A DNA stretch of 64,000 nucleotides. Source: Tridacna crocea. Lineage: Eukaryota; Mollusca; Bivalvia; Cardiida; Cardiidae. A program made the translations under genes and the position numbers. The notes beneath the pieces are model-generated. The model worked only from the letters and a program-made list of their open reading frames with translations, was not told where the DNA came from and searched no databases. Positions 1,409-62,451 of the stretch are shown here, piece after piece. Numbering within the stretch: position 1 is the stretch's first letter; every line of letters starts with the position of its first letter. The DNA lies in assembly GCA_943736015.1 (NCBI GenBank), contig OX031065.1:49826992-49890991 (forward strand). Reading direction: 5' to 3'.

Positions 1409-1511
1409 CTAAAGAAAAGAGAAAAAATATTCTTTTTCATAGTTTAACTGAGATAACACAACATGAAAAAATAGGATCAAGTCCGTGCACTTAGCTCTTT
1501 CTAATGCAATT

Positions 1512-1718
1512 ACAAAATTTTAAGCCCATCAAAATTGAAAACATCAGAAGACAACAAATTGCATGTTACTAAAACAATCGGATTTGTCTATTGAAGGGTA
1601 CAAGACATTGTGAGAAAAGGAGTAGATGCTGATAAACCTACATTTTCTCCTTTTCTCACCATGTTTCCCAAAGCTCAAAACTCAGGATCATCAAAACTCA
1701 GGATTACGGGTTAATTAA
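1512..1718 (-). mobile_element. TTAA-HP MITE, decayed
   Basis: Reverse copy with a degraded hairpin (about 1605-1672). It meets the next copy at a shared TTAATTAA. NMD3 intron 9. Confidence 0.5.
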
Positions 1719-1944
1719 CCCTTTACAGCACAATGACAACTTTTAACACTCCTGAAAGTGAAGGATTTTGAAAACATTGTGGGAAAAAAAGGAAATGCTT
1801 GTTACCACCATTTTCTCCTTTTCCAACAATCTTTTCTACCCAATCAAAGAAAAGTCATTTCATATGAGCCACATTGAAACTGTCATTAGCACATGCTTTC
1901 AGTTCTGACAGGTCTTAAATCTTGTCGTGTGCTAAAAGGGTTAA
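1715..1944 (+). mobile_element. TTAA-HP MITE
   Basis: TTAA-CCCTTTACAGCACAAT start and GCTAAAAGGG-TTAA end, with an imperfect hairpin at 1770-1840. NMD3 intron 9. Confidence 0.7.
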
Positions 1945-2176
1945 AGGGCTAGGTACTTAAACATAATATAATTCATCCAACGCCTCTTTTAACCCTTACC
2001 CCTATTTTTCCTTATTGTTCAAGTCTTTGATAATATCATCTGAGTAAATATTCTAAAAATAGTTCTGAGAATATCCATCCAAAATACAGACTTTCTCTCA
2101 CAAATCAAAAATGGACATTTTAACTTTAAATTGCAGAAAGTCTTGTATGCTACCAACTTAGGTACCAGAGCTTGGG

Positions 2177-2476
2177 CCTAGTCCTGGTAGCTCAGTCGGT
2201 AGCGCACATTACTTGAGAACAGGGGGTCGCGAGTTCAATCCCAGGCTTGGCAAATTTTTTTCCGAGGACTGATGATAGTCATTACGACAAGATTCATTCC
2301 TCTCTCACTGCTGATCGTTGTTTCGACAATGGTTTTGTGGGAAAGCAGCCAGTGGCATGGTGTTGGAAACTGGTAAAAAAGAACTCCAGGAAGGCATGGA
2401 TAGGTGCATTGGCCATCACGATATAATTGAAATAATGTTGAAAACGTCCTTAAACACCATACAATCAATCAATCAA
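2177..2476 (+). mobile_element. tRNA-derived SINE, nearly complete
   Basis: The head has a box A-like TGGTAGCTCAGTCGGTAG and a box B-like GGTCGCGAGTTCAATCC, so a polymerase III promoter of tRNA origin. An unrelated body follows, and the tail is an (AATC)n repeat. The acceptor stem does not pair, so it is not a tRNA gene. Other copies lie at 39862 and 40163. Confidence 0.8.
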
Positions 2477-2577
2477 CCAGTGCTTAGCTCCTGCTCTGGA
2501 AAGAAGACCACACAATAATTTCACAGGTCACTTGTTACTTGTAGAACTCTAGTTCTATGTTTTTTTTTGTCTGTGTT

Positions 2578-2802
2578 CATTTACTTTACTAAACAACAAA
2601 ATTCAGACTCTTCAAAACTGAAAGCATCTGCAGGTTACAAACTGAAAGTGATAAACTGAATGTAAATTCTTAGACTTAGTAGAAAACATTCTGGGATAAG
2701 GATAAATGCTGGTTACCAACATTTTCTCCTTTTCCCAGAATGTTTTCAAAAGGCTTCTCATTCAGGGCCGTTAAAACCTATAATTGTGTTGTCAATTGTT
2801 AA
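2578..2802 (-). mobile_element. TTAA-HP MITE next to NMD3 exon 9
   Basis: Reverse copy with hairpin at 2682-2750, somewhat decayed (CATTCTGGGATAAGG arm). The last TTAA ends about 30 bases downstream, in the gene's direction, of the exon 9 splice donor. Confidence 0.65.
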
Positions 2803-2832
2803 CATAAACAGCAAACATAAAACCAGACTCAC

Positions 2833-2950
2833 ACTGTAAGGTATTGGGATCAATAAGGTGGACAGTCTGAGTGACCTTGTAACACAAACATATCGGGTTG
2901 ATATTCCCCTGTGATGCTGCCAGCTTGGGTGGGAGGCACACAATATTGTC
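2833..2950 (-). CDS. NMD3: NMD3 exon 9
   Basis: Exon of 118 bases: residues 251-289 plus one base of Leu290. It reads DNIVCLPPKLAASQGNINPI and then CLCYKVTQTVHLIDPNTLQ, matching the conserved DNVVCLSPKLA..LGN and HLIDPNTLQ motifs of NMD3. Acceptor ATCGCAG, donor GTGAGT. A TTAA-HP copy ends about 30 bases past the donor (at 2802). Confidence 0.95.
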
Positions 2951-3069
2951 CTGCGATGAATAGTTTTATGTCAAGGTATAAACATGGTACACTTGTATAG
3001 AATCTTTACCAGAAGATAAAGTTTGAGACTAGTCTACATTCAAAGCATTTGGAAACAATAGATTGATTA

Positions 3070-3357
3070 CATCGAGGGGTGAAAACGAAACTATTCCATC
3101 TGCATTTTGGAAAATTTTACAGGTGACGAAAAAAAACATCTCATTTCTCTAGAAAGCATTGTTAGATCCCATTTTTTATCATATACATTATTTTTATTAT
3201 TTATTATATATTATGTAGAACTGAATAAATGAGTTCAACATTACATATCTAAGAATGATGATCTACCAATGCTTTCCAGAGAAATGAGAAGTTTTTTCCC
3301 TCACCTGTAAAATTTTCCAAAATGCAAATGGAATAGTTTCGCATTCACCCCTCGACA
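3070..3357. repeat. Foldback element, arms about 105 bases
   Basis: The left arm begins CATCGAGGGGTGAAAACGAA and the right arm is its near-exact complement ending TTCACCCCTCGACATG, with an AT-rich spacer (about 3175-3255). No coding capacity. NMD3 intron 8. Confidence 0.75.
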
Positions 3358-3901
3358 TGTGCTTCAAATCGCAAGATCTCTCTTTAAAAGGGTAGAAAAC
3401 AACAGATCCAAAAAATCTGCTTGTCTGCCTATCCTCACTTGAAAAAATTTGTGAGGGCAAGTGGATTACCCTTCTTTGTCTAACTGTAGGACAAACCCAA
3501 AATAGCAGGAGGATAAGTAAAAATTCTGGTTTTTTTTTACCCTGAACACTGTGGAAATTGAGGATACTCTCGCTACTTGCAAAGCATAAAGCTATATATT
3601 TTGTTAAATATCATTTCATTTAAATCTATTTTGCAGTTTCTCAAATTCGTGAGCCTAAATCCAAGATAAGTGTAGATGCTTTACATCACTCACTTTTTTT
3701 ACAAACAGCATTTAATAGACAACTCAAACTTTTCATGAAATAACTGTTTAGAAACAATCCCTGATTTTATCCCAAGGGAGAAGGCTCTTGAAAGAATTTT
3801 AGGAAAAGGAAGAAATGCTGGGTTCTTAGTGCCAGTTTGAAAATTTTTTGTTGCTAGGTATTTACGAACATTTTAGACATATCATAGCTGCTAGTGCATC
3901 T

Positions 3902-4127
3902 TTAACCCTTTCCCAAACAAGCCCTTGTTTTTACGTGTCTGCAGTACAAGTCTTTTGAAAACACTGTGTGAAAAGGAAAAATTGCTCGTAACGAGCAATT
4001 TCTCCTTTTCCCACAGGGTTTTCTACCCATATGGAGAACTTTCTGCCATTTTTATCAAAGTTGAAATTGTCATCTGCAAACTCTTTGAGTTTGGAAGTCT
4101 AAAATTTGTCGTTTGGGAAAGGGTTAA
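3902..4127 (+). mobile_element. TTAA-HP MITE, subfamily B
   Basis: Ends CCCTTTCCCAAACAAG and TTTGGGAAAGGG inside TTAA. The hairpin loop region reads AATTGCTCGTAACGAGCAATT, unlike the common AAATGCTGGTAACCAGCATTT. NMD3 intron 8. Confidence 0.8.
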
Positions 4128-4211
4128 CTATACACCCAGAGTTTTAACAGTAACTCATATTTCTAATTAATTCTTTCAAACCCACCAACTGCTTTCCCAT
4201 GAACACATTGT

Positions 4212-4444
4212 TTAACTCTTTACCAAACAACAAAATTTTAGACTGGTCCAAATTGAAGGCACATGCAGATGACAAAATAAATGTAACTAAAAAGTTGAGA
4301 TTTGTTTCTAGCAGGGTAAAAAACATTGTGGGAAAAGGAGAAAATGCTGGTTACCAGCACACATTTTCTCCTATTCCCACAATGTTTTCAAAAGGCCTCT
4401 TTCTCAGAGTCATAAAAACTAGGAATTGTTTGGTAAAGGGTTTA
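4212..4444 (-). mobile_element. TTAA-HP MITE
   Basis: Reverse copy starting TTAA-CTCTTTACCAAACAAC, hairpin 4320-4390, ending GGTAAAGGG-TTTA. Its last TTTA is the first TTTA of the next copy. Confidence 0.75.
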
Positions 4445-4663
4445 CTCTTTACCACACAATCCCGACTTCTGACGACCCTGAGAAAGTAAGCTTCAGAAAA
4501 CGTTGTGGAAAAGGAGAAAATCCTGGTAACCACCATTTTCTCCCTTTCCCACAATGTTTTTTAACCTTCCAAAATCAAATTTCATTATTTGATTCACATT
4601 TATTTTGTCATCTAGAAATACTTTCAATTTGGACCAAAATTTTGTCGTAAGGTAAAGAGTAAA
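4441..4663 (+). mobile_element. TTAA-HP MITE, back to back with the previous copy
   Basis: TTTA-CTCTTTACCACACAATCC start, hairpin about 4497-4562, right end GGTAAAGAG-TAAA. Two complete copies share one target tetranucleotide. Confidence 0.75.
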
Positions 4664-4829
4664 CAACATTCAGAGAATCTTCCAACAACAACTGTCTGGA
4701 TACCTCAAACAAAAGTCTCAACAAGATGGGATTAGATTGTATGACCTCTTGATTATTAGCCGTTTACAATACCAAATAAATGACTAGGCTCATTTTGGAT
4801 GACGAAAAAACTACTATCACTCTATTATT

Positions 4830-5201
4830 TATGCCACAATGAGCCACAATGAAATTGTCTTCTGCAAACTTAATGCTTTCAATTTGGACAAACCTAAAAT
4901 ATTGTCGTTTTGTAATGAGTTAAGGCATCTGCAAAAAAAATAGTTAGGCTCTGTATCAAGAGGGTTTAACCCATTACCATACAATCCCTACTTTTGACAC
5001 TCCTGAGAAAGAAGCCTTTAGAAAACATTGTAGGAAAAGGAGAAAATGCTGGTAACCAACATTTTCTCCTTTTCCCACTAAGTTTCCGACCCTATCAATA
5101 AACAATAGCACCATTTGAGCCATATTGAAATTGTTGTCTGCAAAACTAATGCTTTCAATTTGGATAGGCCTCAAATATTGTTGTTTGGTACTGAGGCATA
5201 A
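4830..5201 (+). mobile_element. TTAA-HP MITEs: right half, then a full copy
   Basis: 4830-4922 is only the right half of a copy (GCAAAC..CTTTCAATTTGGACA, end GTAATGAG-TTAA). A near-complete copy starts at TTAA 4966 with hairpin 5022-5090 and a decayed right end. NMD3 intron 8. Confidence 0.65.
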
Positions 5202-16899: not shown

Positions 16900-18256
16900 T
16901 TTTCCCCCAAATTTTTATATTGCCTTGTATTAAACAATCCTAGTAAATTTCAAAGAAATCTCAAATAATGTGGACTTTGTTGGTCAGAAAATGATACGCG
17001 GTCATCAAATGGATACTTTTCCTGCACACTTTACATGTACATGTACGTTCTAGATATTCAATCCCTCGACGAATCTTTGCAAGTTTCAACACCGATCATA
17101 TATACACACATGAATATACATGTATACGAGATCCCTGGTTTCAACAGAATTGGATCAACACTGTAAAACTTCATTGCCTAAACAAGATCTGGAAATTTTC
17201 GACTATGAATAACTGCTTTTCCCAAACTGATTGTCATTTTTGTTTTGTTTTGTTTTTTTTTTTTTTTTGTTTTTGTTTTTGTTTTTTTGTTTTTAAGCAA
17301 CAGGCTTCAAGCTGTTAATGATACAAAGCAACTGTGCAAGTTTCATGAAAATTCAACTAAAAATGCTGACCTAATCAGATAACAAGAAATGGAAATTTGA
17401 GCCTTAATTGGCTACTTTTCCCATGTTGCTTGTTGGAATTTTTTTTCAAAATTAATAGAATTCAAACTGTTGATGAGACAAAGCAACTGTGTGAGTTTCA
17501 CAATAATCTGATTAGAAATGCAGACTTTATTATGTAAACAAAAACTGGTATTTTTAAACTTGAAATGGCTACTTTTCCCATATCGTTTATTGGATTTTTT
17601 CAAAATCAATAGGGCTGAAGCTACTGATAAGATAAATAAACTGTGTGATTTTCATGAAAATCTGACAAGAAATGCAGACTTTGTCCCATAAACAAGAATG
17701 GGGCATTTTCAAATTGAAATGGCCACTTTCCCCCTACTGTTTATTGGATTTTTTTTTCAGAATCGATAGGGTTGAAGCTACCGATGAGATAAACAAACTG
17801 TGTGATTTTCAGAAAAATCTGACAAGAAATGCATACTTTATCGCATAAACAAGAATTGGAAATTTTCAACTTGAAATGGTTACTTTTCCCATACTGTTTG
17901 TTGGATTTCTATAAAAATCAATAGGGTTGAAGCTATTGATGAGATAAACAAACTGTGCAAGTTTCACAAAAATCTGACTACCAATGTAGACTTTGTCGTG
18001 TAAACAATAATTTGAAATTTTCAACTTGAAATGGCTACTTTTCCTACACTGTTTGTTGAATTTTTTCCAAAATCAGTAGGCTTGAAGCTATTGATGAGAT
18101 AAACAAGCTGTGCAAATTTCACGAAAATCTGATGACAAATGCATATTTTATCGCTTAAACAAGAAAAAGACTAGTGGACGGACAGACAGATGGACGGACG
18201 GACGATGGAAACCCCACCATGACATAAGGTCTGCTGGCTTCCAGCCAGTAGAGCTA
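16900..18256 (+). mobile_element. Helentron-like element with six to seven 154-base repeats
   Basis: Units recur with a period of about 154 bases (TTTATTGGATTTTT blocks near 17584, 17739, 17895, 18048). The right side has a GGACGGACGG stretch, then a small hairpin (CTGGCTTCCAGCCAG) and AGAGCTAAAAA. This layout resembles non-autonomous Helentrons of molluscs. The left end is not defined. Confidence 0.5.
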
Positions 18257-33725: not shown

Positions 33726-35002
33726 ATTTGCACACAAATTACATCTTTCTCCTGTTCCCGATAAGCACCAAGAATATGTGATGGAATAATCAATTGTTTG
33801 TACGATTGTTATTTGAAGACGGCTTTCAGTGGCAGTATGGATTTCCGTAGAAGACTATCATCTGGCGGGGAGAGTTTTTCAGAGGGAACTTCTAGGTTCT
33901 TCAGTTCAATGATTGCCAAGAAAAATGGCTTGATGAATGATCTATCCAATAAAATTGAAAGTGTTGGTGCCACCTTGATGAAGACTAGTTCTAGTGCAAG
34001 TAGTCTGAGTGATTCAGAGGATTTACAAAATAATGCCAAAAATTCTGCTACCCATGAGCCAAAAACAATTGAAAATAAGGAAAATAGTGTTGACAAGTTG
34101 AATCATAAATCTACTCCAGTATCCAATGTAAAAGATAAAAAGATGATACATGTGCATCGAAGGCAAGACAGTGGATCAAGTGGCAGTGGCAGTTTAAGTG
34201 GAAATGAGGGAAATTTTTCTGCTTCAGGTGTCAATATGAGCTTTGATGAACCTCTCTACTCTCCAAGTAAAGTCACATCAGTAGAGAAACCATCAACAGG
34301 AATTGGTCCAAGTTGGAAAGGGCGAAATACCCCACCCACAATTCCACCACCTCCATATAATCCGAACAAAACCGGAAGAAGAAGTTCTAGAAGCTCAACC
34401 AATTCCCCAAAATTGTCCAGTGGACATTCCAGCGACTCAGAAAAATACATCAATGAGAAAAATATTGGAGAAGAAAGAAGCAAAGCGCCGACTTTTGCAT
34501 CCACAAAAAGGAGATCAAGCACAGTCGATGAAATGTTATTTGATGACTACGTGGAGCCAGAGCAACAGGTAGAAAAAACCGAAATTATAACAACAGATAA
34601 AGATAGTGTGGTCAATAAACGTAAAACACTTCTTCCAATGGGTGACTTAATTTCATTTGATGAACCTGAGCTGGAAGATTTTCATCCCAAAGGGATTAAA
34701 ACTCGTAAAGATAATAGCAACTCAAAAGAAAGGGCAAGAGAAAATTCCAGAGAAAAGTCCTTCCCTAGTGTAAGTAGTGTAGACTCGCATGAGGATGAGT
34801 TTGCCGATGGTAGTTTAAACAATCAGACAAGTGTCGAGTCTTCTGAACCAGAATATGAAAGAGATCATTCTCGTAGGTTGGGGTCAATGGGATCAGAAAG
34901 GTCATGGAGCTCCAATTACAGTTTAGACAGTCAGCCGGATGACTTGACGGTGGAATGCATGAACTTCATGAAAGAATTTGTGGGCAAGATTTTCAACCCA
35001 AG
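33726..35002 (+). CDS. KIAA0513: KIAA0513 homologue, first coding exon (CDS from 33837)
   Basis: The exon starts after a TTTGCAG acceptor (33725), so an upstream non-coding exon should exist. The start codon at 33837 has A at -3 and G at +4, and an in-frame stop lies at 33762. It codes 389 residues and ends at a GTAAGA donor, splitting the codon of Arg389. The chain is mostly low-complexity and Ser-rich, so probably disordered. It has a PPPPY motif (170-174, WW-domain ligand type), Arg-Arg-Ser-Ser sites (181-184, 225-228) and an acidic DLISFDEPELEDF patch (270-282) that resembles the SLIDF region near the start of vertebrate KIAA0513. It ends SSNYSLDSQPDDL...CMNFMKEFVGKIF, matching the segment just before the SBF2 domain of that family. 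Molecular function is poorly known. The N-terminus is longer than the human one. Confidence 0.75.
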
Positions 35003-35017
35003 GTAAGAACTTTTATG

Positions 35018-47027: not shown

Positions 47028-48692
47028 AGCTCCACTGGCCGAAGGCCAGCGGGCTAATGTCATGGCCCGTTGTCCGTCGTCCGTCCGTCCGTCCGTGCGT
47101 TAACTTTTTCTTTAAACATCTTCTTCTCTGAAACTACCCATCCAATTTTGATGAAACTTCACAGAAATGATCCTGTCATGGTCCTCTTCAGAATTTCTTG
47201 AAAGAATTTAATTCCTTCAAAAACTCTGGTTGCCATGGCAACAAAACTGAAAAATTTTAAAAATCTTTGAAAATCTTCTTGTCTGAAACCGTAAAGCCTA
47301 GGGCTACCAAATTTTGCATGTAGCTTTATCTAGTGAACCTCTACCAAGTTTCTTCAAATTATAGCCCTGGGGTCAAAATTGGCCCCGCCCTGGGGGTCAC
47401 AAGTTTTACATGGGCTTATTTAGAGAGAACTTTAAAATTCCTCTTCTACCTAGGCATAGGACCTAGGGCTACCAAATTTGGCATGTAGTTTTATCTAGTG
47501 GACCTCTACCAACAGTGTCCAAATTATAGCCCTGGGGTCAAAATTGGCCCCGCCCCGGGGGTAACAAGTTTTACATGGGCTTATATAGGGAGAACTTTAA
47601 AATTCTTCTTCCACCTAGCCATAGGGCCTAGGACTACCAAATTTGGCATGTAGCTTTATCTAGTGGACCTCTACCAAGGGTGTCCAAATTATAGCCCTGG
47701 GGTCAAATTTGGCCCCGCCCCGGGGGGTAACGAATTTTACATGGGCTTATATATGGAAACTTTAATAATCTACTTGTACCTAGCTGTAAGGGCTAGGGCT
47801 ATCAAATTTTGCATGTAACTTCATCTAGGGGGTCTCTATCAAAGGGTGCCCAAATTATAGCCCCGGGGTCAAATTTAGCCCCGTCACAGGGGGTCACAAG
47901 TTTTACATGGGCTTATATAGGAAACTTTGATAATCTACTCGTACATAGCCATAAGGCCTAGGGCTACCACATTTTGCGTGTAGCTTTATCTTATGGGCCT
48001 CTACCAAGAGGGTCCAAATTTTAACTTTGGGGGTCAAGTTTGACCCCACCCCAGGGGTCACAAGTTTTACATTGGCTTTTACAGTGACAACTTGATAAAC
48101 CTGTCTCATGGGTCACATATTTTAGAGGGCCTTTTATTGAGCAAACTTGTTTTACAGGGCTTTTTATTGGGCAAGATTAAAAAATCTTCTTATTTATAAA
48201 CACACATTCTAGTTTCATATTGTAGGTCTGGGGTCAAAATTGCCTCCATTCAGGGATCACAAGTTTAACATGGGCTTCAAAATATAGTCACTTCAATATA
48301 AACATTAATCAAGGGAAATAACTCTTTTTATGAAAGATAAAGTTTGGTACTATTTACTTCCCTTGATTATCAAACTGCTTTGATACATGATTGGTGCTAG
48401 ACATTAAGTTTTTTGATAGAAAATATTCTGTTTTCAAGGAGTGTGATTCATTTGGATGCTAATAGTTATGCTCACATGAGGTGAATAATAAATTCAGAGT
48501 AAGGATTCTATCATTCAGCTTATTTTTCCAAGGATTTTACCTTTCATGCCAATGAATTAATCTACTTGTATTGCCTGACAGTGTTCACTGTTTTTGAAGG
48601 CCCTCTTTTTCATGGTCATGAACACTTCAATTTGTGTGGTAAAGGGTTAAAAAGCCAGTGGAGCGATACAGGGCCATCATGGCCCTCTTGTT
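47028..48692 (+). mobile_element. Helentron-like element with about 165-base repeats
   Basis: Starts AGCTCCACTGGCCGAAGGCC after a T run, then GTCCGTCCGTCCGTCC. Five or so units with GGGCTACCAAATTT and TAGCCCTGGGGTC recur near 47300, 47470, 47633, 47797 and 47962. It ends in a hairpin GGGCCATCATGGCCC followed by CTCTTGTT. No target duplication. A TTAA-HP remnant is inside near 48600-48650. Confidence 0.7.
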
Positions 48693-54623: not shown

Positions 54624-55772
54624 GGGTCGGTATTCACTAACCATTCTTGAGAATATTCCTAGTCTTATTCTCCAAGGTTTTTCCATATTTGTAACACAAC
54701 CTCTGACTGGCTAAACTGAATGGTTTAGCCAATCAGAAGTTGTGTTTTTAGCTCATCTGAGCAGGAAGTGCTCATGGTGAGCTTTTGTGATCGCCCAATG
54801 TCCGTCATGCGTCGTCCGTCCGTGCGTCATCCTTAGTCCGTCGTCCACAATTTCTTTAAACGTCTTCTCCTCCTAAACCATTTGGCCAATCTTGATGAAC
54901 CTTGACAGGGATGTTCCTTTGGTGAAGCTCTACCAAAGTTGTTCAAGAGATTAAATTCCACCCATAACTCTGGTTTCCATGGCAACCAAAATGAAAAAAA
55001 TGGCAAAATCTTTGAAAATCTTCTTCTCTGAAACTAGTAGGCGTAGAGCTTGATATTTGATATGTAGCATCTCCTAGTGGACCTCTACCAAGATTTTTTC
55101 ATATGATGCCCCTGGGGTCAAAACTGGCCCCACTCCGGGGGTCACAAGTTTGTAACATCGGAATAAAGAATGAAAACTTTAAAATTCTTCTTCTCTGAAA
55201 CTAGAAAGTGCAGAGCTGGTGTGTAGCAATGCCTAGTAGACATCTACCAAGATTGTTCATATGATGCCCCTGGGGTCAAAACTGGGCCCACCTCGGGGGT
55301 CACAAGTTCGAAACATAGGAACAAAGAAGGAAAAATTTAAAAATTCTTCTTCTCTGAAACTAGAAGGCGTAGAGCTTTGATATTTGGTATGTAGGATCTG
55401 CTAGTAGACTTCTACAAAGTTTCTTCATACGATGCCCCTGGGATCAAAACTTGCCCTGGCCCAGGGGTCACAAGTTCGAAACATGGGAACAAAGAAGGAA
55501 AACTTTAAAATTCTACGTCTCTGAAATTAGAAGGTGTAGAGCTTTGATATTTTGTAAGTAGCATCTCTTAGTGAACCTCTACCAAGTTTTTTCTTAGGAT
55601 GCCCCTGGGGTCAAAACTGGCCCTGCCCCAGGGGTCACAAGGTTGATTTTACTGCTTAGTACTCAGGTGAGCGATATAGGACCATCATGGTCCTCTTGTT
55701 TGCAAATGTAGAAAAGTCTGGAGAATATTAGACAAAGAACCTTCTTAAGAATGGTTGGTAAATATGGGCCCA
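54624..55772. mobile_element. Foldback MITE F2 split by a Helentron-like element
   Basis: Left arm GGTCGGTATTCACTAACC..AGTTGTGTTT to 54749 and right arm TGCAAATGTAG..GGTTGGTAAATATGGGCCC from 55701. The arms still pair. Confidence 0.78.
54750..55700 (+). mobile_element. Helentron-like element, second copy
   Basis: AGCTCATCTGAGCAGG after a T run, GTCCGTCATGCGTCGTCC, then four units of about 160 bases with CCCCTGGGGTCAAAACTGG (near 55108, 55266, 55434, 55601), ending GGACCATCATGGTCC-TCTTGTT. Inserted between T residues of a foldback arm, no duplication. Confidence 0.75.
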
Positions 55773-55842: not shown

Positions 55843-56175
55843 AAGGGTTAAGTTTAAAATTTCAGTGTGTGATAAAGGCTTTAGTAGCATACAAAATGTA
55901 AGGATTACTGACAATTAATGTTTGTTTCTTTACTCAAAATGTAAAGGGTTACAGGATGCTCATTTCCCCAAGAGACTGGTGTGAAATGACAAGATGGCCA
56001 ATAGCAGGTGATTTCCTGTTTTCCCAGAATGCTTTGCTGTCTGTCACACAGTTGGAAACTCTTTCATGTGAAAGTTTTGTCATGCAATTTGCAAATCAAT
56101 TAATGTCTTATGTACTTTTATAATGATCACCTAATTTTACCTGCAAAACTTGTTTCAGCTCAAAGTGAGCACATA

Positions 56176-56288
56176 GTAGGACAAAACCCCCCTAGGACAA
56201 AACCCCCCTAGGATAAAACCCCCATGGACAAAACCCCCCTAGGACAAAACCCCCCTAGGATAAAACCCCCCTAGGACAAAACCCCCAT
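56176..56288 (+). repeat. 16-base tandem repeats, left end of the foldback
   Basis: About seven units of GGACAAAACCCCCCTA with small changes (ATAAAACC, CCATGG). Confidence 0.9.
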
Positions 56289-56341
56289 CATATATAAAAA
56301 GCATATAAATTTGAGAAAACACACATAATTTGCAAACAGTT

Positions 56342-56569
56342 TTAACCCTTTCCCAAATGACAATCTTTTGGACTAGACCATATTGAAAGCATTTGCAGAT
56401 GACAATTCAACTCTTGCTGAAAAGTTGATTTCTGTCTATGACAGGGTAGAAAACATTGTGGGAAAAGGAGAAAATGCTGGTTACCAGCATTTTCTCCTTG
56501 TCCCACAATGTTTTCAAAAGGTTACTATTCTAGACCCGTAAAACCATGTATTGTTTGGGAACGGGTTAA
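56342..56569 (-). mobile_element. TTAA-HP MITE inside the foldback element
   Basis: TTAA-CCCTTTCCCAAATGAC to TTTGGGAACGGG-TTAA, hairpin 56450-56515. It lies between the left tandem repeats and the left arm. Confidence 0.82.
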
Positions 56570-56928
56570 AGTATTCAAAACAAGTCTGTTTGATTTAAGG
56601 AAAAAAATCAAACATGAAAGGCAAAAAATGATTTAAATATTATCTTATTTTAATTTGTACCTCAAGTTTGTTGATAATTTCTATTGATATATCAACACCT
56701 ATGCAGACTTGGGCAAGACAGGTGTTGAGAAGGGATTAAGACACCTGATTTGCAAGTTTACACCTGTCATATTCACTAATATTTAGTAGTAGATTTGATC
56801 ATATAAAAGCACTAAATAAGAAAAAAAAATCCTTTGATTAATATATGAATGATTTTTTTCATTGTATGATTGCATTTATAATTTATTATGAATTTATTAT
56901 GAATGTATTAAGAAAAAAACACATTTAT

Positions 56929-57369
56929 CAGTATGGACCAACGTACAGTGTCGCAAATCGGAAGCTGCTGCTACTGTACGCCCCAAATCAGTTAGCTGCA
57001 GTAAACAAGTTTAACAAAACAGGCTGGCACGCGTAATCTAGCAAACAGAAAATGATCGGGTGTTTTGCATTTGAAAGGTAAGAAGTTTTTCTACAAATAC
57101 ATACTGCGATTGGGTTCATAAACCGTGCGATTTTTGTACAGGAAAGCTGCATCACCAAATTTTGTCGTTGGCGGCTGCCATGACCGCTAAACTTTTGCTT
57201 TCTACTCCTTCGGGAAGATCGGAAACCATTTTCTGATACTGCATACAGATAAAGAAATCAATCAGCTTCGCGTATGTATGTCTGTGCTTGTACTCAGTGC
57301 CATATCCATTGAAATAATTCACTTTTTATCAAGGTACCATCAAAACGTTCACTGTACGGCTAGCTGCTA
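56929..57369. repeat. Left arm of the 440-base inverted repeat
   Basis: Begins near GTATGGACCAACGTACAG and ends near CACTGTACGGCTAGCTGC. Few mismatches to its partner at 60828. Confidence 0.85.
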
Positions 57370-57412
57370 AGCCGGATTTTTGTACTGCTCGGTTAGCTGC
57401 GATTTTCTTGGT

Positions 57413-59520
57413 AAAGCCTCTTTCACATCAGCCGTGCGATTTTTTCGTTTTACGATTCGCCTCAAACACGATCGCTATCTATTCGTACCCGTCGCACATA
57501 TTGCAAATTTGCAAATTTGCAAAGCGATCTCCGTACGTTGTTCGTACGGTTGACTCACGAACTGTACGGTGTCCGCAGGGTGAACGTACGAAAAAAACAA
57601 GAGGGCCATTGGCCCTGGAACGCTCACCTTAGACTATAGCTTATGAGTGAAATTCAATTCTTTGAGTAACTTTGGTAAAGCTTCACCCAAGGAACATCCA
57701 TGCCAAGTTTCATCAAGATTGGCTCAGTGGATAAGGAGAAGAAGATGTTTAAAGAAACTGTTGAAGGGCGACAGACGCCGGACGTAGGGCAATCAAATAT
57801 CAAAGCTCTACACCTTCCATTTTCAAAGAAGAATTTTAAATTTTCCTTCTTTGTCCTATGTTCGAACTTGTGGTCCCCGGGGCTGGGTCAGTTTTAACCA
57901 AAGAAGCATTATTGGAACAAACTTGGTAGAGGTCCACTTTAAGATGCTACATACCAAATATCAAAGCACTACAGCTTCCCGTTTTAGAGAAAAAGAAATT
58001 CAAAATTTTCCGTCTTTGTTCCTATGTTCCAACCTGTGACCTCATGGCCAGTTTTGACGCCAGGGACATCATATGACCAAACTTGGTAGTGGTCCACTAG
58101 GAGATGCTACATACCAAATATCAAAGCTGTACGCCTTCAAGTTTCAGAGGAGAAGATTTTTAAAGTTTTCCTTCTTTGTTCCAATGCTCAAACTCGTCAT
58201 CCCCCGGGGCGGGGCCAGTTTTGACCCTATAGGCATAATTTGAACAAACTTGGTAGAGGTCCATTAGGAGATGCTACATACCAAATAACAAAGCTCTACG
58301 CCTTATAGTTTCAGAGAAGAAGAGTTTCAAAGATTTCGTTTTATTTTTTTTTTCTTTGTTGCCATTGCAACCAGAGTTATGGATGGAATTAAATTCTTTG
58401 AACAATTTTGGTAAAGCTTCACCCAAGGAACATTCCTGCCAAGTTTCATGAAGATTAACACAGTATTTAGGAGGACAAGATGTTTAAAGAAATTGTTGAC
58501 GGACGACGGACGACGGACATAGGGCGATCACAATAGCTCACTTTTAGCACTTTGTGCTAAGGTGAGCTAAAAACAAAGCGACAAGTTCGCACGGCTTTCG
58601 TGCGGTTAGCTTAAGGCTGCCGCACAAATTCTCAAGGCACCCGCAAGACTGCCGTAAGAATTTTCAAAGTTTCTTACGACCACCGCACGGCAAGCACGAT
58701 TTTGCAAGACAGCTGCACGGTGTTCGTGCGATCGCCATAAGGAGGAGGAATTATCTCCTTTTGTCCGATTGGATATATATATATATTCACAATGCTACCC
58801 CGGCACATAGGTTGCATATTGAAAAAATGGACAGGATACTCGCAGACAAAGACCGGGACGACGATATTTTATGCTAAGGGCATTTTGTCATTCTTGTACA
58901 AGCACGTGCCTTCTTCATCTAAATCCTGGATTGGTGGTACCTTGGTTGTCTCGGGTTCAATGGGGGATTCAGCAATCGGAACCTACCCCTTTCCATTCTG
59001 AGATCTTTGCTTCTACCTGACCTTCTCGTCCCTAAATCTCGATAGCGACTGATGACGAACAAGACATACAATTTTTTTAAAAGAGGAGGATCGACGCTAA
59101 CTTTTCGCAAGGCATTTGCGGGGCAGCTGTGCGAATCTCTACGTTGTTCGTACGTTCCGCAGTAGTCTTCAGACAGACTTTTACCAAACGCAAGGCATTC
59201 GCAAGGCAGCCGCAAGATGTTCGTGCGATCGTCTTGCAGCCTTCGCATGACAAACGCAAGTTATAAAATCGTATGATTGATGTGCGATGATCTCAAGGTA
59301 GCCGTATGGCTCCCGTGTGGCAACCGTACAGTTGCCGTGCAAACTCAAAAAACCGCAAAGAAATCGCTAAGAAAATGAGCATATTGAAAAACCAGCTTAA
59401 TTGCGATGTCTTCGGCGTTGCAAATTCGTAAGGCAGTCTTGCGGAATCCGCGCTAAGTCCTGCGATTTGTCAAAAAATGTTCCCGTACGGCTGTCGTAAG
59501 GCTGATGTGAAACAGGCTTT
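57413..59520. mobile_element. Nested TIR element with CGTACGG-rich interior
   Basis: AAAGCCTCTTTCACATCAGCC at left and GGCTGATGTGAAACAGGCTTT at right. The interior is full of CGTACG, GCCGCAAG and CGTGCGAT words in both directions, so the single strand can fold extensively. It sits in the spacer of the large foldback. The target duplication is unclear (possibly TA). Confidence 0.7.
57597..58569 (-). mobile_element. Helentron-like element, third copy, nested
   Basis: Reverse of 54750: begins AACAAGAGGGCCATTGGCCC, has units with CTTGGTAGAGGTCCA and CATACCAAATATCAAAGC, and ends GACGGACGACGGACATAGGG and AGGTGAGCTAAAAA. Inserted into an A run of the nested TIR element. Confidence 0.78.
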
Positions 59521-60230
59521 TAAAGCTTATAATGAGAATTGTGTACATCTTTGTTAAGAGTGTTGCAAAAAATGACATATAGATCTAGCTCTGAAGATGT
59601 GAGGTTGGCAGTGGTGAATTTATAAAGTTCGTATTCGACTTTTCCAGGTCCCATTTCCACCCTTTAAAGACTGGGTGAATCAAGGGGTCGTGAATAGCTC
59701 TACCATCGTCTATAAACGATGATAGTCAGTACTGAGCACGATTAGAGGTTAGATGTATTAAAAGGATCGGCTGCCTTTAAGCTAGTGCTTCTGTTTTCCC
59801 TGAGATTTATACCTTTCAAAGGGAAACGGTACCAACTGAACGTCTGCAAATGCTTTGGTAAAGACTTAAGACTTGAGGATGGATGTGCGAGATAATACCG
59901 TGAATTTAGGTTAAGAAAGAAAACCTGAAAACTTTACGTTTAACCCGAGCTGAATTCTTTATTTCGTTGAAAAGCTACAAAAAAAAACCCTTACTATATA
60001 TAATTTATTGATGTTCATCAGTGAATTAAAATCAATGATTAGGGGTTGCAAAAAATGGCAAACTTTGTACCTATCTGTTGTACAGGAACTAGACCTAAAT
60101 CAAGAAATAACATCAGCGATGTTTTCCATGTACTGAAAGTATTTATCACTGGAGCCGGATTTGTGTAATTCATGAAATGCCTGGAAGAAACAAGAAAATC
60201 TTACCTGCTATTGTTTGAATTTATATATTT

Positions 60231-60703
60231 ATATATGTCGCCGTCCAAACTGGAATCTAGGCAGATCCTGAATCTAGACCAAACTGGAATTTTGCCTATA
60301 CCAAAATAGTTTTTAGAGTTTGGCCAGGCAGCTCCACAATCTGCCTAGACCAAATCGGAATATTTTCTCGTTTTATATAATGCGACTACATATTAACCAT
60401 CTTAGTCAACTTAAACTCCAACATAAAAGAAGTTTAATTAGAAATTCTGAGTAAAATTAAATTTTGAATGTTTAGCACTTTCGAGGAAAAAATGCAACGT
60501 GGAAAACGGAGCAATTGTGGGAAAAACAAATAAGTTGCTTCAATCAAACATACGTCTCAATTGTAAACACATGAGAATTAATATGATTAAAAATTTGGAA
60601 AAGAAGCTAGATCTATTTTGGTCTACACTAAAGTATTATTCTAATTTGGTCTAGGCAGATTCCCGGGATATGCCTAGATTCCGATCCGGCATACGACATA
60701 TAT
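60231..60703. mobile_element. Nested TIR element with TCTAGGCAGAT ends
   Basis: ATATATGTCGCCGTCC..TGGAATCTAGGCAGATCC at left and the complement ..GGGATATGCCTAGATTCC..CGACATATATA at right. CTAGACCAAAYYGGAAT words recur inside. Located in the foldback spacer, right of the CGTACGG element. Confidence 0.68.
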
Positions 60704-60827
60704 ATCGAGCTAAAAAATCGTGTTTTACCGTATGGGCTGAACCTTTTTGTTCAGTACTATGATGCATTAATGCAGCTAGGCGTACACATTTTTTATTGTG
60801 AAATGCAGCTAATCGTGGCGTACAGAT

Positions 60828-61267
60828 GCAGCTAGCCGTACAGTGAACGTTTTGATGGTACCTTGATAAAAAGTGAATTATTTCAATGGATATGGCACTG
60901 AATACAAGCACAGACATGTATACGCGAAGCTGAATGATTTCTTTATCTGTATGCAGTATCAGAAAATGGTTTTCGATCTTCCCGAAGGAGTAGAAAGCAA
61001 ATGTTTAGCGATCATGGCAGCCGCCAACGACAAAATTTGGTGATGCAGCTTTCCTATACAAAACTTGCACGGTTTATGAACCCAATCGCAGTATGTATTT
61101 GTAGAAAAACTTCTTACCTTTCAAATGCAAAACACCCGATCATTTTCTGTTTGCTAGATTACGCGTGCCAGCCTGTTTTGTTAAACTTGTTTACTGCAGC
61201 TAACTGATTTGGGGCGTACAGTAGCAGCAGCTTCCGATTTGCGACACTGTACGTTGGTCCATACTGT
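60828..61267. repeat. Right arm of the 440-base inverted repeat
   Basis: Inverse of 56929-57369. The inner side adds three GCAGCTAG/AATCGT-GGCGTACA words. Confidence 0.85.
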
Positions 61268-61437
61268 TTATGGTCATAAAGCAAATTTTTAAGAAAAAAA
61301 TAACCCCACATTTTTTATCATAAAGCACAAATTAACTTATACAAAAACATTATTTTTTACAACCCCCACAAGTATTTAAAGCAGTGAATTTTATTCAACT
61401 TTAAAATGATTGTACAAAAAGAATCATTTTAAAACCA

Positions 61438-61550
61438 TGGGGGTTTTGTCCATTTTTCAGTTAAGGGTATGGGGGTTTTGTCCAGGGGGGTTTTGTCCAG
61501 GGGGGTTTTGTCCTAGGGGGGTTTTGTCCTAGGGGGGTTTTGCCCCAGTG
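61438..61550 (-). repeat. 16-base tandem repeats, right end of the foldback
   Basis: About six units of TAGGGGGGTTTTGTCC, the inverse of 56176-56288. Confidence 0.9.
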
Positions 61551-61639
61551 ACTTTGAGGCACTTTTAAGGCACCCTTGCAGATACATTAAATCCCCTTTT
61601 CACGGTGCATGACTGTGAATGGTCGTTGTTTGTGCATGT

Positions 61640-61996: not shown

Positions 61997-62451
61997 TCAC
62001 GGCGGGGAATCACGTGACACAATAACAACAAAAATGACCTGACATTTGAAAAAATTCCCCAACTTGAGGTAAGAAAATCTTCAATAATTCCGTTAATACA
62101 TGACCGATTGGAATTTGGTTTGAAGCAGAGAAGGCGGAACGACTCCAGGGATTTGCTTGATGTATTAGATTTTTTAAACAACACCCGATAAAAAAGTTAC
62201 TGACGAGCAAACAATTTTTTTACCTTGGATAATTTGTTTGCTCGTCAATAACTTTTTTATCAGGTGTTGTTTAAAAAATCTAACACATCAAGCAAATCCC
62301 CGGAGTCCTTCCGCCTTCTCTGCTTCAAACCAAATTCCAATCGGTCACATATTAAGGGAATTATTGAAGATTTTCTTACCTCAAGTTGGGGAATTTCTTC
62401 AAATGTCGGGTCATTATTTTTGTTGTTGTGTCACGTGATTCCCCGCCGTGA
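61997..62451. mobile_element. Perfect-type palindromic element, 227-base arms
   Basis: TCACGGCGGGGAATCACGTG at left and its complement at right, pairing right up to a centre near 62224 with only a few percent mismatch. GTA flanks on both sides suggest a 3-base duplication. Both arms keep matching open frames (MLFKKSNTSSKS type), a by-product of the palindrome. Confidence 0.82.

Follow-up and report, generated by a model that had tools for sequence, protein, structure and literature searches.

A 5.4-kb palindrome in Tridacna crocea very probably contains a non-autonomous MULE-type foldback transposon with later insertions

How might a 5.4-kb palindrome have arisen in the genome of the bivalve Tridacna crocea? 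The window considered here is a stretch of 64,000 nucleotides (assembly GCA_943736015.1, contig OX031065.1, positions 49,826,992 to 49,890,991, or C10:49826992-49890991 in the assembly of 31 contigs and 1.049 Gb that was searched), and the palindrome, at 56159-61558, encloses a pair of long inverted arms between inverted arrays of short tandem repeats. The original prediction described it as one foldback element with three levels of nesting. We consider it very probable that the outer structure (56176..61542, plus strand, inserts included) is a non-autonomous foldback transposon built like a Mutator-like element (MULE) of the Tm1/Muta type, which was moved in trans and was later hit by a TTAA miniature inverted-repeat transposable element (MITE) and by an element with long terminal inverted repeats (TIRs) bearing a HINE, a non-autonomous Helentron.

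The outer structure belongs to a dispersed mobile family. The predicted 16-base outer tandem repeats are indeed present as inverted arrays, at 56177-56286 (plus strand; seven units of GGAYAAAACCCCC(C)TA) and at 61439-61542 (minus strand; the inverted unit is broken after its first copy by ATTTTTCAGTTAAGGGTA, an interruption that is nearly alike in the copies L085, L078 and L069). The family unit is GGACAAAACCCCCCTA, and a 29-mer of two exact units has 294 forward and 295 reverse matches in the genome, with 0 + 0 for the reversed-pattern control. As read in individual copies, the ends consist of GAGTGTA plus GGACAAAACCCCC on one side (A1) and GGGGTAC plus GGACAAAACCCCC on the other (A2); a degenerate pattern covering both found 454 places (219 + 235; control 0 + 0). 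The tally of end pairing rests on the first 100 of these places, of which 99 carry an exact heptamer and one reads GGGTTAC. Sixty-six of the 100 form 33 facing pairs, and 34 have no listed partner. Every one of the 33 pairs combines an A1 end with an A2 end, each heptamer being followed by GGA, and their lengths are 548-2,153 bp in 32 cases (737-1,080 bp in 26 of the 33) and 212 bp in one. Typical copies that were read are mostly about 0.8-1.1 kb long, and in a 2.1-kb copy, L083, the longest open frame has only 134 aa.

Target duplications point in the same direction. A sample of 30 loci gave 25 end pairings, with none at seven loci (including L041, excluded by the 300-bp minimum length), and two pairings were set aside, one at the inner end of a dimer (L047) and one at a false end (L051). 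In 18 of the remaining 23 copies, an exact target duplication abuts the unshifted ends, 8 bp long in 11 and 9 bp in seven. The L047 dimer itself (C1:8522648-8525676, positions 537-2604) consists of two outer-family elements head to tail, with ACAGCTTTT as a common 9-bp duplication on the outside; the arrangement looks like the transposition of a tandem dimer, or like the duplication of one copy once inserted.

These counts bear on the possibility that the palindrome is a local inverted duplication involving no transposon, the outcome to which a lack of second copies would have pointed. Such an origin would account for the inverted octamers CTCAAAGT and ACTTTGAG at 56159-56166 and 61551-61558, just outside the outer arrays, which occur in this arrangement only here, and for the want of a clean target duplication around the window copy. 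For the outer structure, however, it is refuted by the hundreds of dispersed places with asymmetric ends and by the duplications in 18 of 23 copies, and we give it next to no credence. The octamers fit no family feature. Because inverted matches of at least eight bases between two 18-base flanks also arise in random pairs of window segments (102 of 20,000), the pair is weak evidence and may be due to chance; one of 22 other outer copies has such a match too, and there the target duplication is itself palindromic. The original prediction had taken CTCAAAGT as the family end. Genome-wide, the ends of this locus are the only two places where it has GGACAAAACCCCCC no more than 28 bases away, as against the 454 places for GAGTGTA or GGGGTAC with GGACAAAACCCCC, and it was therefore rejected as a terminus of the family.

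What enzyme could have moved such elements? No coding gene was recognised in the window element, as predicted, and the source of its transposase had been called unknown; the genome nevertheless contains a FLYWCH and MULE family with the same end plan. A search with the MULE profile PF10551 gave 61 matches; 18 of them tie at 41.1 bits, and 14 of the 61 have a stop-free frame of 515 codons. Two MULE elements that were read, L074 and L075, are 3.2-3.3 kb long and 99.6% identical over 2,727 bp. They are bounded by inverted arrays of a 14/15-bp unit, GGACGTTTTGGCCA, with the ends GAATGTAGGAC and GGAGGACGGAC, in which the heptamers GAATGTA and GGAGGAC are followed by GGAC, and they lie within 9-bp target duplications (ATTTCAAAC and ATCACTGTT). 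Each carries an intact open reading frame of 502 aa, differing at six residues between the two copies, with a FLYWCH domain (4.5e-12 and 3.7e-12) and a MULE domain (2.5e-9 and 2.3e-9); candidate DDE residues, which we take to be the triad, stand in DGTF, MDFE and SEGWN. The end motif of this coding family, the 20-mer GARTGTAGGACGTTTTGGCC, has 44 + 30 matches (control 0 + 0). Sixteen of the 61 MULE matches have it on their own strand less than 10 kb away, 15 of them at about 1.2-1.3 kb and one at 1.5 kb; within 10 kb of the other 45 it is absent.

GARTGTAGGAC is common to one end of the MULE elements and of the outer family, GGNGNACGGAC to the opposite end, and thus the outer family is built like MULE elements with an intact gene. 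Judged from these ends and domains, a protein of the FLYWCH and MULE type is likely the transposase that moves the outer family. A third array family, with the end GAATGTAGGTAAAAAAGCC, is represented by 58 + 51 ends (control 0 + 0). Two nested arrangements were also seen among these elements: at about 847-5425 of L074, a foldback of this third family, with GGTAAAAAAGCC arrays, encloses the whole MULE foldback element within an outer 9-bp duplication, TAACCAGCT, and inside an outer-family element at 300-568 of L075 (C1:4340099-4340367) some 16 bp separate a GGTAAAAAAGCC-array end from an array of the GGACAAAACCCCCC family.

Another superfamily with 8-bp duplications, P (Galileo-like) or hAT, might have moved the outer family, its foldback form having arisen by convergence as in Galileo. 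Galileo, of the P superfamily, is described as likewise having foldback-like ends with internal tandem repeats (PMC3688188), and 11 of the 18 exact duplications are 8 bp long. The other seven, at 9 bp, fit less well, a mixture of 8 and 9 bp being the pattern given for Muta1 (PMC5225508), and the GARTGTAGGAC and GGNGNACGGAC ends are common to the outer family and the MULE elements of this very genome. We regard a P or hAT origin as improbable.

The copy in the window has the body of a normal member of this family, with an A1 (GAGTGTA-type) end on the left and an A2 (GGGGTAC-type) end on the right. Its limits were placed by end alignments and by a three-block alignment of the body to L085 (positions 5-812 of 822), with identities of 98.8% over 170 and 97.8% over 362 positions on the left and 93.9% over 277 on the right. 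L085 lacks both of the inserts found in the window, and without them the outer element is a non-autonomous foldback transposon of roughly 0.8 kb.

Several observations weigh against the proposal that this is a MULE foldback moved by the FLYWCH and MULE protein type. First, in the window copy neither terminal heptamer is intact, nor is there a clean target duplication: direct matches between its 18-base flanks reach 5 bp at most. Second, in five of the 23 copies the duplication is not an exact one of 8-9 bp (6 bp in L079, 1 bp in L087 and L090, and 0 bp in L082 and L084, the last two having 7 and 8 bp once one end is shifted by one base). Third, among the 12 of the 61 MULE matches that lie on C1-C3, compared by eye with the outer-family ends listed there, none was enclosed by outer 16-bp ends; the nearest, at C1:4343837, lies 3.5 kb outside such an end. 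A relative missed by this comparison may thus be the actual partner. Fourth, the coding-family unit GGACGTTTTGGCCA has only GGAC in common with the outer unit, so that cross-mobilisation by the 502-aa protein is uncertain.

Compatible with the MULE foldback reading, the window copy might lie at a breakpoint of ectopic recombination or inversion involving two foldback copies. The missing target duplication at the outer ends would then be accounted for; copies of Tm1 lacking the duplication or the terminal motif have been ascribed to recombination (PMC3169594). Recombination should, however, have left the heptamers intact, and here both are damaged. Moreover, if A1 is read as CATAGTA, and A2 as CCCC with 6 nt lost, the 8-mers next to them, AGTGAGCA and AGTGACTT, agree in their first five letters, and they may be a decayed target duplication, a 7-base block having been changed at the left junction and six bases lost at the right. 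In a search with the joined flanks, no second place with both flanks was present among 40 scored of 2,719 candidates, so that no empty site could be read; apart from the locus itself, the scored matches cover the right flank only, from about 75 bp outwards. A breakpoint appears unlikely to us, if less so than the other alternatives, and we retain the reading of a MULE foldback, the ends of which may have decayed after insertion.

Within this element, the smaller of the two inserts is a TTAA hairpin MITE (56346-56565, unstranded), which had been predicted and does lie between TTAA copies at 56342-56345 and 56566-56569. At the corresponding site, L085, L078 and L069 read TTTTAAAGTATTC / TTTTAAAG and have no hairpin. 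The genome is rich in this hairpin, with 5,581 first-look candidates, of which 40 were scored.

The larger insert is a long-TIR element of 4,338 bp (56929..61266, plus strand) with the ends CAGTATGGACC and GGTCCATACTG, flanked by the duplication TTTAT at 56924-56928 and 61267-61271. Its termini are the inverted arms, which are 439 nt long (56929..57367, plus strand, and 60828..61266, minus strand) and 98% complementary to each other; the original prediction, which gave 440 bases, was right as to their presence and wrong in making them part of the outer element. If the whole were a single 5.4-kb foldback with these arms as its own termini and three nested elements inside, the arms would be expected inverted, near-identical and inside the arrays, as they are. 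The other outer copies, however, are mostly about 0.8-1.1 kb long, and copies with the same body run through the arm position uninterrupted, as ACACATTTTTGGTCATAA in L042, L064, L069 and L077 and with one extra G in L085, where the window reads ACACATTTAT...TTTATGGTCATAA; the search string for the uninterrupted point did not match L078. The arms were accordingly rejected as a part of the outer element. Elsewhere, they face each other in pairs at distances of 3.8-10 kb, and the eight pairs examined have unrelated flanks and target duplications of their own, exactly 5 bp in seven and 4 bp in one (those of C7_15.2 and C8_39.5, 4 and 5 bp, were read from the flanks by eye). A single foldback is thus refuted by the uninterrupted copies, and we hold it to be very improbable.

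The long-TIR element forms a family of its own. First-look candidates number 432 for the arms (40 scored, all at 96-100% identity), 221 for the core at 59530-60225 and 395 for 58640-59500 (40 scored in each case); candidate cores at about half the number of arms fit one composite element in some two hundred copies, these being candidates and not verified copies. The suggestion that the near-identity of the arms could reflect homogenisation finds no support in the subfamily of the window and was rejected for it. In ungapped comparisons of eight copies, same-end arms of the four young ones (the window, C8_58.6, C3_54.6 and C7_15.2) differ at 1-5 of 439 positions, as against 10-15 between the two arms of one copy, which argues that these differences were inherited from the progenitor of the young group, with no homogenisation since. 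In C7_37.4, an arm of 438 bases produces 207-211 artefactual differences in such a comparison. C8_39.5 shows four differences within the copy and 13-20 to the four young ones, and in older copies homogenisation is possible, or the arms had not yet diverged.

No transposase was recognised in the long-TIR copies read. Transib elements make 5-bp target duplications and end in CACWATG; the long-TIR terminus CAGTATG is off this motif at its third base, and the 5-bp duplications in seven of eight copies are Transib-like. A search with the Pfam RAG1 profile gave no match here, and none in 14 control genomes either. In a 10-kb copy, L091, the extra length is a 1,231-codon open frame at 1492-5187 that resembles a long interspersed nuclear element (endonuclease and reverse transcriptase, by eye). 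At C9:19213033 and C9:19228231 (L038, L030), two arms stand 15.2 kb apart in direct orientation with identical 25-base flanks, either through a segmental duplication in tandem or through an artefact of the assembly.

The inner pieces belong to the long-TIR element in other copies, so that no separate insertion of them into the outer element has to be assumed. The predicted Helentron-like piece at 57597-58569 (minus strand) is a Pearl-like HINE and has the substructures described for this group (PMC7492417): perfect 11-bp subterminal inverted repeats (subTIRs; 58557-58567 / 57622-57632), a complementary inverted repeat (58536-58550), a GTCC-type microsatellite (58498-58518), central tandem repeats of about 160 bp (57794-58337) and a palindrome (57602-57616). 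The HINE-bearing middle part is carried by the four other long-TIR copies read (L071, L072, L073 and L091), and since all four contain the HINE, no empty site was seen that would show insertion at TT without a target duplication; the long-TIR element and its HINE cargo spread as one unit. Around it, the second predicted TIR element (57413..59520, unstranded) does have an inverted pair, an imperfect one of 27 nt (57413-57439 / 59494-59520, 89% complementary); it is part of the long-TIR element in the same four copies, and with no target duplication recognised by eye it is a candidate element only. The third (60231..60703, unstranded) likewise has an inverted pair (60230-60268 / 60666-60704; 77% over 39 nt, 92% over the internal 25 nt) that occurs as part of the long-TIR element in L072 and L073 and is cut in L071 by a deletion of about 500 bp around 59834-60334. 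Further arrays of repeats of about 155-167 bp were noted in the window at 17381-18165, 47292-48093 and 55006-55641, the last two of the HINE-repeat type by eye.

How might the nested structure have been assembled? We propose that the FLYWCH and MULE transposase, supplied in trans, would use its FLYWCH finger to bind the array units, pair the two ends and move the outer element by cut and paste. The window copy later received, in either order, the TTAA hairpin MITE and the 4.3-kb long-TIR element with its 5-bp duplication. The latter had the HINE on board before it landed here and was spreading together with it, so that the inner nesting came in ready-made. In this way the odd-looking palindrome comes down to ordinary insertions, one after another. 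The abundant non-coding foldback family gains a candidate enzyme family, and the locus offers an example of a DNA transposon multiplying a tandem-repeat-bearing HINE as its cargo.

We speculate, tentatively, that several foldback MULE families in this genome have kept the GARTGTA heptamer and the two-ended polarity while exchanging whole units (GGACAAAACCCCCCTA, GGACGTTTTGGCCA and GGTAAAAAAGCCATA), each unit being the site of its own transposase variant. If so, the arrays would be swappable address tags, the heptamers would mark the cut site and the left/right polarity, and the unit-swapped families would form a natural series on the evolution of MULE end recognition. The rule of one A1 and one A2 end, together with three coexisting array units, opens that recognition to direct binding tests.

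Two further features of the window lie outside the outer element. Just beyond it, 62048-62400 contains a 170-nt inverted repeat, 94% complementary, with arms 13 nt apart, and a serine-rich open frame of 413 codons at 33765-35006 may represent a host-gene exon. A scan of the window against Rfam at gathering thresholds gave no match.

How does the outer family compare with known systems? The literature searched held no description of it, a statement limited to that search and not extended to other print; in an excerpt of PMC8277862, foldback occurs only in the reference list, and in PMC10294476, on bivalve transposons, the word is absent from the main text. The HINE at 57597-58569 shares with Cg_HINE and Pearl of bivalves the 11-12-bp subTIRs, the inverted repeat, the GTCC-type microsatellite, the palindrome and the repeats of about 160 bp; here it was multiplied inside a DNA transposon, and Cg_HINEs within other transposable elements have also been reported (PMC7492417). 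Tetris and DAIBAM of Drosophila virilis are likewise non-coding foldbacks with tandem repeats in their TIRs, 8-10-bp duplications and ends common to families presumed to depend on a single transposase, whereas their repeat unit is about 220 bp and no transposase was found there (PMC4079207). Some members of the Phantom clade of MULEs combine a FLYWCH finger with the MULE domain, and the clade has 8-10-bp duplications; the likeness is one of features and not of a tree, and in the excerpt of PMC6446971 the Phantom hosts include no molluscs and neither of the two Mollusca groups is given a zinc finger. In Galileo, the tandem repeats of the TIRs contain binding sites for the transposase, those of Foldback and Phantom being called untested in 2013 (PMC3688188).

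The closest parallels are Tm1 and Muta1. Tm1, a Mutator/Foldback element of root-knot nematodes, has asymmetric 7-bp A1 and A2 motifs followed by GGA and inverted arrays of a short unit, as here (PMC3169594); its unit is most often 14 bp, 45 of 53 elements have 8-10-bp duplications, and its transposase, of 496 aa, combines FLYWCH and MULE domains (PMC3169594). Both systems include many MITE-like non-coding members, nested insertions and some copies without motif or duplication (PMC3169594). The unit sequences differ, A1 being CGGTTAA in Tm1 and GAGTGTA or GAATGTA here (PMC3169594), and this genome has no fewer than three array-unit families side by side. Tm1 has been called inactive and senescent (PMC3169594), whereas 14 MULE matches here have the stop-free 515-codon frame. 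Muta1, an active MULE of Aedes aegypti and a type-2 foldback, is about 3.2 kb long with a 504-aa transposase and 8/9-bp duplications; its terminal motif is followed by 12-bp subterminal tandem repeats, and it has more than 300 putative non-autonomous derivatives in which repeat number varies (PMC5225508). It resembles the foldback MULEs of this genome in size, in a transposase of about 500 aa, in duplications, in a terminal motif with tandem repeats and in its derivatives; the Muta1 transposase is encoded in two exons and its activity was demonstrated in yeast (PMC5225508), whereas our reading is sequence-based. Together, Tm1 and Muta1 define a plan of 7-10-bp terminal motifs, 12-15-bp units and 8-10-bp duplications (PMC3169594, PMC5225508), and the outer element fits this published MULE foldback plan as a known type of element.

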